Assembly: GCA_017881265.1 (NCBI GenBank)
Contig: JADGRA010000016.1
Coordinates: forward strand, 62,001 to 126,000
Reading direction: 5' to 3'
DNA from: Myxococcaceae bacterium
GTDB taxonomy: Bacteria; Myxococcota; Myxococcia; Myxococcales; Myxococcaceae
DNA: 64,000 nt
In this document: positions 60,323 to 64,000 of the stretch, one piece after another
Layout of the letters: each line of letters opens with the position of its first letter
Numbering within the stretch: the stretch's first letter is position 1
Position numbers and translations under genes: made by a program
Notes under the pieces: model-generated
Databases searched by the model: none
What the model saw: the letters and a program-made list of their open reading frames with translations, nothing else
Told to the model about the DNA's origin: nothing

Positions 60323-61090
60323 TCAGTGCGCGATGCGGGACCGACGACGCAGCGTCAGGCCGACGCCGACGAGCACTAGTGCACCACCGACGAGGCCGAA
60401 CAGAGGCAGCGGACTGCCCGTCTTGGGCAGCTTCGCCGGCTTCGGCGCGGGGGCGGCTGCCACCACAGGTGCGGGTTGAGCGGGTGCCGGTTCAGCGGCC
60501 GGAGGCGCCGGTGGAGCCTTTGGAGCCGTCACCTTCGCGGTGGCTGAAGTCAAGGTAGAAATCTGCGGCGGGTAATTCGTGATGATGGTCGCCGTGAGCT
60601 GGTCCCCCGCCTTGAGGTCGCTAAGGGGAATCTCCTTGCCGTTCTGGATGATTTTCACGTCGCGGCCCTGCTCGTCCTTGCTCGAGTACTTGATGAGCTG
60701 GCCCTTCTGATTCTTGACGAGGATGGAGCCCATCGACGACTCCATTACGGTCCCCTTCACCACGCGCGTGACATTCACCGGCTGGACGGTCTTGCTTTCG
60801 GTAATCACGGCGGTGATTTTGTCGCCAGGCTTGAGGTCAGCAATCGGGACGTTCTTGCCGCCCATCTGGAAGGTGAACCCCTCAGGAATGTTGTGCTGCC
60901 GGGTCACGCCGTCTGACTCCTTGGTGTAAAGCGTGTTTCCAGAAACCCAGACGACGACGCCACTCTTCACAGTGGTTGTCGTCGTCGTGGTCGCCGGCGG
61001 CGCTGTGGCCGCAGGTGGTGTCTGAGCTATCGCCACCTGGGCAAGGAACACCGCTCCAACGGCGAAAGCAGCTGCATTTCTCTTGAACAT
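60323..61090 (-). CDS. Exported LPKTG-anchored protein, sortase substrate
   Basis: 255 aa. A signal peptide (FAVGAVFLAQVAIAQTPP) leads a Pro/Thr-rich start. The body holds two similar segments, VPIADLKPGDKITAVI (about 81-96) and IPLSDLKAGDQLTATI (about 154-169). A Pro/Ala-rich stretch (about 186-220) precedes the C-terminal sorting signal LPKTG (221-225), followed by a hydrophobic helix (LFGLVGGALVLVGVGLTL) and RRRSRIAH. This is the textbook three-part sortase signal. The gene is 17 nt after the sortase gene on the same strand. The body is unrecognised. Confidence 0.9.
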   Translation of the reverse strand: MFKRNAAAFAVGAVFLAQVAIAQTPPAATAPPATTTTTTTVKSGVVVWVSGNTLYTKESDGVTRQHNIPEGFTFQMGGKNVPIADLKPGDKITAVITESKTVQPVNVTRVVKGTVMESSMGSILVKNQKGQLIKYSSKDEQGRDVKIIQNGKEIPLSDLKAGDQLTATIITNYPPQISTLTSATAKVTAPKAPPAPPAAEPAPAQPAPVVAAAPAPKPAKLPKTGSPLPLFGLVGGALVLVGVGLTLRRRSRIAH

Positions 61091-61107
61091 AGTTGTCTCT
61101 CCCTTTT

Positions 61108-61896
61108 TTACTTAGAAGGCGGTCGAGCCTCGTGCATCGATTGTGCCGACGGGTCGGCCAGAACCGCCCGTACGATGTACCGCTGGGGCGCTGAGCCCGC
61201 GAAATAGAAGGGAAAACAAGTCACTAGGGTGAGCGCCGGCACTGCTGTGGATTCGAGCACTTGTACATCTTGCGGCGAGACGATGCGCAGTCCTTCTATC
61301 CGAAATCTTTGCGCCCTGTCGAGCGTCACCAATTCAACGGAATCGCCCAACTTCACCTGTTCCAAGGCCCGAAAGAAGCCGTCGCGATGGCCGGCGATGC
61401 CCACATTGCCCGGCTCGCCCGGGCGCGCCGTCCCCTCAATCCAGCCGACGGCGCGGTCGAGCGTCCACTCGTCGGTTCCGGCGAGCACCGGCACCTCAAG
61501 GCCGATGCGGGGGATTCGCAGCACGGCAAGCGGCGGAGGGGCCTCCTGCACCAGCGCTTGGGCATACGCCTGAATGCGCTCCTTGGCCCATCGGCTCTGG
61601 TCGACCGCCTGGACGTTGACGCGTGGCAGCGCCGTCGCGGCAGAAGCCGGCGAGGGCTGTGGTGTCTCGAGGGCAAGGCGGAACCGGCGCAGGTCGCGCT
61701 GCTCGAGGGCCGTGCCCACCAGCCTGCCCAACCCCCAGACAGCGAAGAGGAGGAGTCCAACTGCCCAGGCCAGGAACTCGGCCCGCCGGAGCCAGGGTGA
61801 GCGTCTCCCGGTGCCGGCATGGGCATCGACGGACGCGTCTGTCGCAGATGGGGGCTCGGCGGTCGGCAAGGCGCGAGATGATGCTACGCGGCCCAT
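61108..61896 (-). CDS. Sortase (class-D/SrtA-like transpeptidase)
   Basis: 262 aa from the ATG at 61896. An N-terminal membrane anchor (EFLAWAVGLLLFAVWGLGRL, about 40-59) faces the catalytic domain outward. Catalytic residues are His170 (NVGIAGHRDGFFR), Cys227 (ALTLVTCFPF) and Arg239 (APQRYIV). The TLVTC motif is diagnostic. It should cleave between T and G of LPXTG and join the Thr to an amine. The adjacent gene encodes an LPKTG protein. A longer frame to 62241 has no credible extra domain. Confidence 0.88.
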   Translation of the reverse strand: MGRVASSRALPTAEPPSATDASVDAHAGTGRRSPWLRRAEFLAWAVGLLLFAVWGLGRLVGTALEQRDLRRFRLALETPQPSPASAATALPRVNVQAVDQSRWAKERIQAYAQALVQEAPPPLAVLRIPRIGLEVPVLAGTDEWTLDRAVGWIEGTARPGEPGNVGIAGHRDGFFRALEQVKLGDSVELVTLDRAQRFRIEGLRIVSPQDVQVLESTAVPALTLVTCFPFYFAGSAPQRYIVRAVLADPSAQSMHEARPPSK

Positions 61897-62308: not shown

Positions 62309-62851
62309 ATGCCCCGCCGATTGTCCCCGCTGTTCCTCGCAGCGCTTCTGCTCTTCCCGGTGGCAGCAAGGGCGTCCGACTGGGGCGTCCGCCTCAGCTA
62401 CCTCGTGCCGATGTACGTCAACACCGGGGAGCCGAAGCCCAGCAACCCAGTACTCGGCACCACATACCAGTACAACGCGGGCGAGGTGTGGCTGTCCAAC
62501 CTGGACCTCATCCTCAGCTGGTACCCCATCAGCTTCATCTCCCTCGACGTCGAGGCCCAGTTCAATCTGTCCCCGACCAACATCGACTACCCCAACACCG
62601 GCATCTACGTCGGACCGGGCATTACCCTCGACCTTCCCCTGTTCCTCTTCGCGCGCTTGTCGTTTCCGGTGCAGGTCACACCGGGCTCGGCAGTTTGGTA
62701 TCTCCGTGCAGCAGGCGGCTTCAAGCTCGAGCTCTTCATCGTCAGTCTCTACCTCGAGGGGGTCTTCGACTTCCCCCTGGCCAGTAAGGCCAATTCGGCC
62801 TTCGGGAGCCAAGCCATCAGCCTTGACGCCGGTCTTTGGGTCAAGTTCTGA
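62309..62851 (+). CDS. Small outer-membrane beta-barrel candidate
   Basis: 180 aa from ATG 62309, after GGGAGG. Signal peptide: PLFLAALLLFPVAARA. The mature protein alternates hydrophobic and polar residues, has many aromatic girdle residues (WLSNLDLILSWYPISFISL) and ends in Phe (VKF*), as expected for an outer-membrane barrel. No family was recognised. It lies between the divergent sortase genes and the lipoprotein. Confidence 0.65.
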   Translation: MPRRLSPLFLAALLLFPVAARASDWGVRLSYLVPMYVNTGEPKPSNPVLGTTYQYNAGEVWLSNLDLILSWYPISFISLDVEAQFNLSPTNIDYPNTGIYVGPGITLDLPLFLFARLSFPVQVTPGSAVWYLRAAGGFKLELFIVSLYLEGVFDFPLASKANSAFGSQAISLDAGLWVKF

Positions 62852-62966: not shown

Positions 62967-63287
62967 ATGAAACGTCTGGTGGCAATCAGTGCCGGGCTCA
63001 TCGTCCTGTTCGGCAGCGGGTGCGGCGTCAACGAAGCGTACGTGAAGCAGCAGACCGACCCGATTAACGATCGGTTGTCGAAGGTCGAGTCGCAGCTCGC
63101 CGACCTCCAGAAGCAGAGCAGCGCGCAGACCGCTGACATCCAGGCACTCAAGAGTGCGGTCGCCGACAACAAGGCCGCCGCAGCGCAAGCCGAGGCTGCT
63201 GCAGCCAAGGCACAGGCCGCTGCGGCGCAGGCCGAGGCCGCCGCGTCCAAGTCGACGAAGGCCTTCACACTGCACCAGAAGAAGTAG
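62967..63287 (+). CDS. Braun-type (Lpp-like) lipoprotein with C-terminal Lys
   Basis: 106 aa from ATG 62967. The signal ends GSGC with Cys19 (the position before it is Gly, so the lipobox is slightly atypical). The mature chain is an Ala-rich heptad coiled coil (RLSKVESQLADLQKQSS and QAEAAAAKAQAAAAQAEAAA). It ends HQKK. A terminal Lys is what E. coli Lpp uses for covalent linkage to peptidoglycan. It is somewhat longer than Lpp and not from the Pfam Lpp type that I can verify. The neighbouring gene is an L,D-transpeptidase. Confidence 0.75.
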   Translation: MKRLVAISAGLIVLFGSGCGVNEAYVKQQTDPINDRLSKVESQLADLQKQSSAQTADIQALKSAVADNKAAAAQAEAAAAKAQAAAAQAEAAASKSTKAFTLHQKK

Positions 63288-63313: not shown

Positions 63314-64000
63314 TCAGCGCGTGATGTCGACTGGCGTCCCGGTCGGGTGCTGGACAGCCGTCTCCAGCTTCACGACGTCCACGCGCTCCATCAGCGCCCG
63401 TTCGGCGAGCAGGCGCCTGGCGAGGGAAGTGGTGTCCGCGTGGAAGTCCTCGTCTGCGTGGACCTCCACGTAGACGCGGCCGTTGTAGAGCGCCACCTTG
63501 ACCGGCTCGCGGACGATGGTGACTTCCGTCCCGACGTGGACCAGTCGGTAAAGCTGAGGAATGTCCTCCGGGTACAGGCGGAGGCAGCCGTGGCTGGCGC
63601 GGCGGCCGACGCCATAGGGCTTGTCCGTGCCGTGGATGAGGATGAAGGGCCCGGACAGGTGGAGGGCGTGGGTGCCCAGCGGGTTGTCGGGGCCCGGCGG
63701 GACCTGGGCCGGCAATTCAGGCTTCTCTTTGCGGATGGAAGCCGGTACGCGCCAGACGGGGTTGCGCTCGCGTGCCACGACCTGGAAGTGGCCCAGCGGC
63801 GTCTCGGTGCCTTCCGAGCCAACTCCGATGGGGAACGTGACGACCCAGTTTCCGCCGTCCTTTCGTGCCTGCGAGAAGTAATACAGACGCATCTCCGAGA
63901 GGTTGACCACCACCGTCCCGGCCGCCGCCGCCCGCGGGAGAACCCACGCCGTTGGCACGGCGACGGTCGCCCCGGGGCCTGGAACGAAGGGGTCGAGCGT
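63314..64000 (-). CDS. L,D-transpeptidase (ErfK/YbiS-type), partial
   Basis: The frame is open to the right edge, so the N-terminus (which in the family often carries LysM or a signal) is missing. The YkuD active site HGTDKPYGVGRRASHGCLRL has the catalytic His and Cys in SHGCLRL. The segment VVNLSEMRLYYFSQ and TPLGHFQVVARE are typical of the ErfK/YbiS/YcfS group that links Lpp to diaminopimelate. It lies tail-to-tail with the Lpp-like gene, 26 bp apart. The visible part holds 229 codons including the stop. Confidence 0.9.
   Translation of the reverse strand, partial: TLDPFVPGPGATVAVPTAWVLPRAAAAGTVVVNLSEMRLYYFSQARKDGGNWVVTFPIGVGSEGTETPLGHFQVVARERNPVWRVPASIRKEKPELPAQVPPGPDNPLGTHALHLSGPFILIHGTDKPYGVGRRASHGCLRLYPEDIPQLYRLVHVGTEVTIVREPVKVALYNGRVYVEVHADEDFHADTTSLARRLLAERALMERVDVVKLETAVQHPTGTPVDITR

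Follow-up and report, generated by a model that had tools for sequence, protein, structure and literature searches.

Can a diderm bacterium run a sortase dedicated to one substrate of its own, and if so, where in the envelope would that substrate be fixed? The question is raised by two genes on the minus strand of the window, i.e., the whole 64,000-nucleotide stretch of DNA analysed here. Reading both open reading frames bore out their placement in an earlier sequence-only reading: the sortase gene (61108..61896, 262 aa) lies upstream, and a gene for a secreted protein of 255 aa with a C-terminal LPKTGS signal (60323..61090) follows 17 nt downstream on the same strand. The gap between the sortase stop and the substrate start (61091..61107) contains GGGAGAG ahead of the substrate ATG, and GGTGGAG precedes the sortase ATG; by eye, both are plausible ribosome-binding sites. 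A promoter and terminator scan of the gap revealed no site of either type. The host genome (a soil bacterium of the Myxococcaceae, 4.4 Mb, 95.7% complete) encodes LptD (E = 4e-7, above the cut-off) and is thus that of a diderm; the sortase is the only one in the whole 4.4 Mb.

The enzyme and its LPKTGS substrate

The upstream protein belongs to the sortase superfamily according to Pfam PF04203 (E = 4e-29, 101.3 bits, cut-off 26.6), and it was also matched to solved sortases by sequence and by fold. Structure predictions, which had been suggested for both proteins in the sequence-only reading, gave a sortase fold for this one (AlphaFold2, pLDDT 83.7), with C. perfringens SrtD (4d70) as the best Foldseek match (E = 6.7e-14). 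A lone N-terminal membrane helix is located within helix 34-77, and the catalytic domain comprises residues 122-247. The three catalytic residues named earlier, His170 (codon 61387..61389), Cys227 (in TLVTC, codon 61216..61218) and Arg239 (codon 61180..61182), all on the minus strand, proved to be invariant in 79 homologues.

The downstream protein combines a signal peptide, an LPXTG motif, a hydrophobic helix and a basic tail, as an LPXTG-anchored protein does. All of its features are encoded on the minus strand. The signal peptide (residues 1-22, 61025..61090) is followed by Q23; in a 44-row substrate alignment, A22 is retained in 42 rows and Q23 in all 44. At the other end, the LPKTG motif (residues 221-225, 60416..60430), in which P and T are invariant, is followed by S226 (43 of 44 rows), a hydrophobic helix (residues 230-247) and a tail (residues 248-255; helix and tail together 60326..60403) with RRR at residues 248-250. 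The tail sequence is LPKTGSPLPLFGLVGGALVLVGVGLTLRRRSRIAH. The three-part signal described from the sequence was recovered by PF00746 Gram_pos_anchor (22.1 bits, cut-off 20), by TIGR01167 (21.1 bits, cut-off 15.9) and in the structural model, where the helix covers residues 230-254. Among the 332 reading frames of at least 100 aa in the window, the substrate alone ends in all three parts of the signal; with shuffled tails, the chance rate was 0.001 per window. A family-specific signal model found the substrate site at E = 5e-15 and, in the host genome, no further signal with E < 0.07.

The body of the substrate had been called unrecognised, which holds for Pfam; it is nevertheless a conserved tandem OB-like domain common to 43 other substrates. 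The AlphaFold2 model (44-row alignment, overall pLDDT 81.8, pTM 0.47) consists of two OB-like beta-barrel repeats (residues 38-190, 60521..60979, pLDDT 86-95 in this part) and the C-terminal helix, with a Pro/Ala-rich spacer (about residues 191-220, 60431..60520; 31 residues, 12 Pro) ahead of the motif. Assignment of the body to a known fold family was rejected: Foldseek returned nothing at E < 0.001, and VIA-align gave Z values of 5.5 or less scattered over unrelated OB domains, with CusF and the Mpa OB domain as weak structural kin at Z 5.5. Profile searches of Pfam, NCBIfam and the PDB yielded sub-threshold matches only (CusF, DUF1344, LysM_OapA, ribosomal protein L6). Since the fold matches are weak, we refer to the body simply as OB-like.

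Relatives of the substrate occur in two other Myxococcaceae (53% and 45% identity) and in Acidobacteriota. Single-domain versions (A6) align with the tandem family at E = 4e-27 (hhalign) and the gammaproteobacterial type, more weakly, at E = 5e-20, both values being inflated by the common spacer and tail included in the alignments. The Sulfotelmatobacter loci combine the same tail with a different body; in six loci of Candidatus Sulfotelmatobacter (L051, L055, L064, L076, L100 and L104), the substrate gene (LPxT[AG]S) is divergent from the sortase gene and the body gives a weak DUF2911 match. In the sequences compared, the body of the substrate varies more than its tail and the sortase, which form the constant portion of the module.

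Occurrence and linkage of the pair in other genomes

Another question is whether the pair is confined to this genome. When named genomes were scanned with the window sortase, 80 loci were retained, mostly from Acidobacteriota of several classes and also from Gemmatimonadales, one Rhodospirillaceae MAG, Myxococcota and Gammaproteobacteria (Lysobacterales, Chromatiales, Oceanospirillales and others). A gene ending in LPxT[AG][STG] and a helix was located near the sortase in 70 of the 80 loci, including L095, whose reading frame crosses a stretch of N. The motif across 71 linked substrates is LP[KST]T[AG]S, with S at position 6 in 61 of them and T or G in the others. The substrate gene may stand before or after the sortase gene or be divergent from it, and in the two closest relatives (L026 and L027) it precedes the sortase, the reverse of the order in the window. 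Thus, the linkage outlives rearrangement, which speaks for a functional pair. Comparison of the neighbourhoods revealed no conserved third gene (outer-membrane exporter, accessory pilin or second sortase) beside it. The exception is a NarL-type response regulator family, which in 12 loci (L035, L047, L050, L053, L056, L060, L062, L066, L074, L081, L086 and L091) is encoded no more than 5 kb from the pair; a PAS histidine kinase family lies near it in 8, and the class D sortase of B. anthracis is likewise under a two-component system (PMC3297441).

Co-occurrence was assessed in 297 Acidobacteriota genomes, drawn evenly. The sorting signal was found in 42 of the 59 sortase-positive genomes and in none of the 238 sortase-negative ones (Fisher p = 1.1e-37), and for 47 of the 60 signals a sortase was located no more than 3 kb away. 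Sortase neighbours served as the training set of the signal model, but most of the 297 genomes did not contribute to it. The module is present in about a seventh of the sampled Acidobacteriota genomes, including the cultured Edaphobacter and Granulicella; the cultured carriers include Edaphobacter aggregans DSM 19364 and E. modestus DSM 18101 (loci L046 and L071). In the 41 genomes behind the loci, which were chosen for having a window-type sortase, 56 signals stand against 59 sortases (some of the surplus sortases match less strongly and may belong to another class), with equal numbers in 30 of the 41. The near-equality suggests one sortase per substrate. A few genomes have several signals for a single sortase, among them an acidobacterial one (G428) with one sortase and four unlinked signals, an apparent one-to-many exception.

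A survey of Myxococcota, also proposed in the sequence-only reading, detected a sortase in 5 of 195 genomes. Three of these are of the window type, and the full-length signal was found in those three genomes only; the remaining two have class GN sortases with TIGR03788 targets. Other Myxococcaceae gave six weak signal-model matches (E = 7e-5 to 7e-4), which were discounted, as they have no LPxT part. The signal is rare in Gammaproteobacteria, with 2 cases among 369 genomes. The patchy presence in Myxococcota would fit lateral acquisition from Acidobacteriota, or else repeated losses. Judged by sequence, the window pair is a member of a dedicated sortase-substrate family centred on Acidobacteriota and not an isolated oddity. 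The earlier view of the locus, a diderm sortase encoded beside an LPXTG substrate of its own, is supported, and strengthened by the conservation across loci; we regard the pairing as almost certain.

Relation to known sortases and sorting systems

The sequence-only reading also noted that sortases are mainly known in Gram-positives, and this part can be refined: diderm sortases as such are already known and modelled as class GN, the marine proteobacterial type (TIGR03784/TIGR03788). The window enzyme is of a different, class-D-like type. In the NCBIfam ranking, class D is highest, yet full membership was rejected, since the scores stay below the cut-offs (109.9 bits against 165 for NF033746 and 122.9 against 140 for NF058671 SrtD). 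Membership in class GN was rejected on score (86.8 against a cut-off of 158.25), target type and tree position. Both are diderm sortases paired with a neighbouring substrate, but the class GN target is a large VIT/vWA protein, whereas the window substrate is small and OB-like and has no TIGR03788 match in NCBIfam. Two other Myxococcota families (L028 5196-7969 in G183 and L029 7875-10426 in G182) carry class GN sortases with VIT/vWA targets, TIGR03784 and TIGR03788 both being above the cut-off; these genuine class GN enzymes score 195.5 (G183) and 159.8 (G182) on TIGR03784.

In the tree of reference sortases, the long branches of which give it moderate weight only, the 37 diderm sortases lie together on one side of a branch (support 93/92), the Bacillus-type class D enzymes form a separate group (99/97), so that the window enzyme is not inside Firmicutes class D, and class GN forms a separate branch (100/98). 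The window sortase groups with two Myxococcaceae enzymes (100/86 and 98/86), and in the larger tree the next branch out from this trio is a Vicinamibacterales (Acidobacteriota) enzyme (93/88).

The closest solved relative by family profile is B. anthracis SrtD (2ln7, E = 5e-33), called SrtC in older literature, with which the window sortase has TCYPFxxxGxAPxRYI in common. In B. anthracis, the gene of the substrate BasI lies in the sortase operon (PMC3208642), and the enzyme is reported to cleave LPNTA between Thr and Ala, with the m-Dpm amine as the acceptor (PMC3297441). The known class D motifs are LPNTAS and LPQTGS, and the C. perfringens LPQTGS substrate gene is likewise in a sortase operon (PMC4498605); the LPKTGS of the window and the S that usually follows LPxT[AG] in the linked substrates agree with these motifs. 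The B. anthracis system (BasI/BasH, LPNTA) differs in that the host here is a diderm, the substrate body is another one, the enzymes fall into separate tree groups, and a sporulation context was not seen in the window. C. perfringens SrtD shares the LPxTGS motif and the fold, but its host is a monoderm, it is without the TCYPF...APxRYI end, and a long tree branch separates it from the diderm group. A plasmid search gave no match for the window substrate; the matches of the window sortase were class D, GN, F and other enzymes, all below 60% identity. On a Priestia megaterium plasmid (L152 924-2166), a Firmicutes class D sortase adjoins a small protein ending in LPETAS and a helix, so the one-to-one habit may predate the diderm group.

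Two further kinds of diderm system resemble the pair in their outcome or layout. L,D-transpeptidases anchor Lpp, OMPs and LimB to diderm peptidoglycan (PMC8263019). The end product would be of the same kind, a protein covalently bound to meso-DAP peptidoglycan, but the enzyme is unrelated and links the mature protein by one of its terminal residues (N-terminal Gly or Ala in OMPs), whereas the link proposed here would pass through a new C-terminal Thr created by cleavage. The myxosortase/MYXO-CTERM, exosortase/PEP-CTERM and rhombosortase/GlyGly-CTERM systems of diderms likewise combine a motif, a helix and a basic tail with a membrane enzyme (PMC11980579, PMC1569441); these enzymes, however, are unrelated multi-helix membrane proteins with other motifs and usually many substrates each.

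According to a recent review, it is monoderms that anchor proteins to peptidoglycan by sortase (PMC10501053); for diderms, L,D-transpeptidases are the only enzymes mentioned in a paper on proteins bound covalently to the wall (PMC8263019). We found no description of class-D-like dedicated pairs in Acidobacteriota, Gammaproteobacteria or Myxococcota in the literature searched, which covered subscription journals thinly, and the family appears to be undescribed. That literature also held no biochemistry on any family member.

Proposed attachment and its alternatives

What the sequences show is the pairing with its catalytic residues and complete signal, together with its co-occurrence and linkage in several phyla; from them we infer the following route. 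The substrate would be exported by Sec and stay in the inner membrane, retained there by the C-terminal helix. The neighbouring membrane-bound sortase would then cut between Thr224 and Gly225 and form a thioester with Cys227. The amine that resolves the thioester would most likely be the side-chain amine of meso-diaminopimelate (meso-DAP), the diamino acid that diderm peptidoglycan usually contains, in lipid II or in peptidoglycan. This acceptor is favoured because the class D relative in B. anthracis uses the m-Dpm amine; the window sortase is below the class D cut-offs, and the analogy may therefore fail to carry over. The OB-like barrels would end up in the periplasm, fixed to the thin wall on a Pro/Ala-rich stalk, where they might serve, for example, in bracing the envelope. 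The probable function of the module is covalent attachment of a small envelope protein to the cell wall, and the explanation as a whole (dedicated module, transfer to a meso-DAP amine, wall-anchored periplasmic protein) is the one to which we incline, with modest confidence.

It counts against the wall anchor that a wall-linked periplasmic protein would not be on the surface: by itself, such an anchor displays nothing outside a diderm cell. The substrate might instead be joined to an amine of the outer envelope other than peptidoglycan, in a lipid or lipopolysaccharide, and so reach the outer membrane or the surface; for other C-terminal sorting enzymes of diderms, the substrates are believed to remain membrane-anchored at the cell surface (PMC11980579). 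Since neither an outer-membrane exporter nor any other third gene is conserved nearby, and since m-Dpm is the acceptor of the nearest characterised relative, we consider such a destination unlikely. If true, it would constitute a sortase-driven route of outer-membrane or surface anchoring in Acidobacteriota and Myxococcota. It is also unlikely that the sortase links substrate molecules to one another, through a lysine in their tandem barrels, to form a pilus-like homopolymer. A single sortase with a single tandem-domain substrate does recall minimal pilus loci; Foldseek lists class C sortases among the structural relatives, and a plasmid-borne Firmicutes class D sortase adjoins a SpaA-type pilin gene. 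Nevertheless, the pair has neither the conserved acceptor lysine nor the accessory pilin genes of class C pilins: the 44-row substrate alignment contains no invariant body lysine, the best reaching 77%, neither an accessory pilin gene nor a second sortase gene is conserved, and the window sortase scores higher with the class D and GN models than with that of class C.

The sortase could also act mainly as a protease, with water resolving the thioester and the body freed into the periplasm. Hydrolysis is compatible with the sequence, and plain release would need just these two genes; however, the conserved His, Cys and Arg and the TCYPF...RYI end match transpeptidases with known amine acceptors, and release could be achieved with no dedicated enzyme by omitting the C-terminal helix, which makes a mainly proteolytic role rather improbable. 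That the pair arose by chance or by faulty binning of a draft genome is very improbable indeed. Sortases of any kind are scarce in the Myxococcota sampled, and the next tree branch out is acidobacterial, which speaks for such an origin; against this stand the chance tail rate given above and the homologous pair in two other Myxococcaceae genomes, whose enzymes group with that of the window.

With one enzyme and one substrate, accessible to simple deletions, the module makes the attachment point of a diderm sortase directly testable, and it offers compact sortases with their own LPKTGS or LPKTAS substrates.

Three further genes of the window lie close to the pair. A 178-aa secreted protein (62316-62851, plus strand), encoded divergently from the sortase and matched by no model of Pfam or NCBIfam, has the look, by eye, of a small outer-membrane barrel. 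A small Ala-rich coiled-coil lipoprotein (62967-63284, plus strand), for which no Pfam or NCBIfam model exceeded its threshold, ends in HQKK with a C-terminal Lys and faces a YkuD L,D-transpeptidase (63314-63958, minus strand). These two genes look like a Braun-lipoprotein/Ldt pair outside Gammaproteobacteria.
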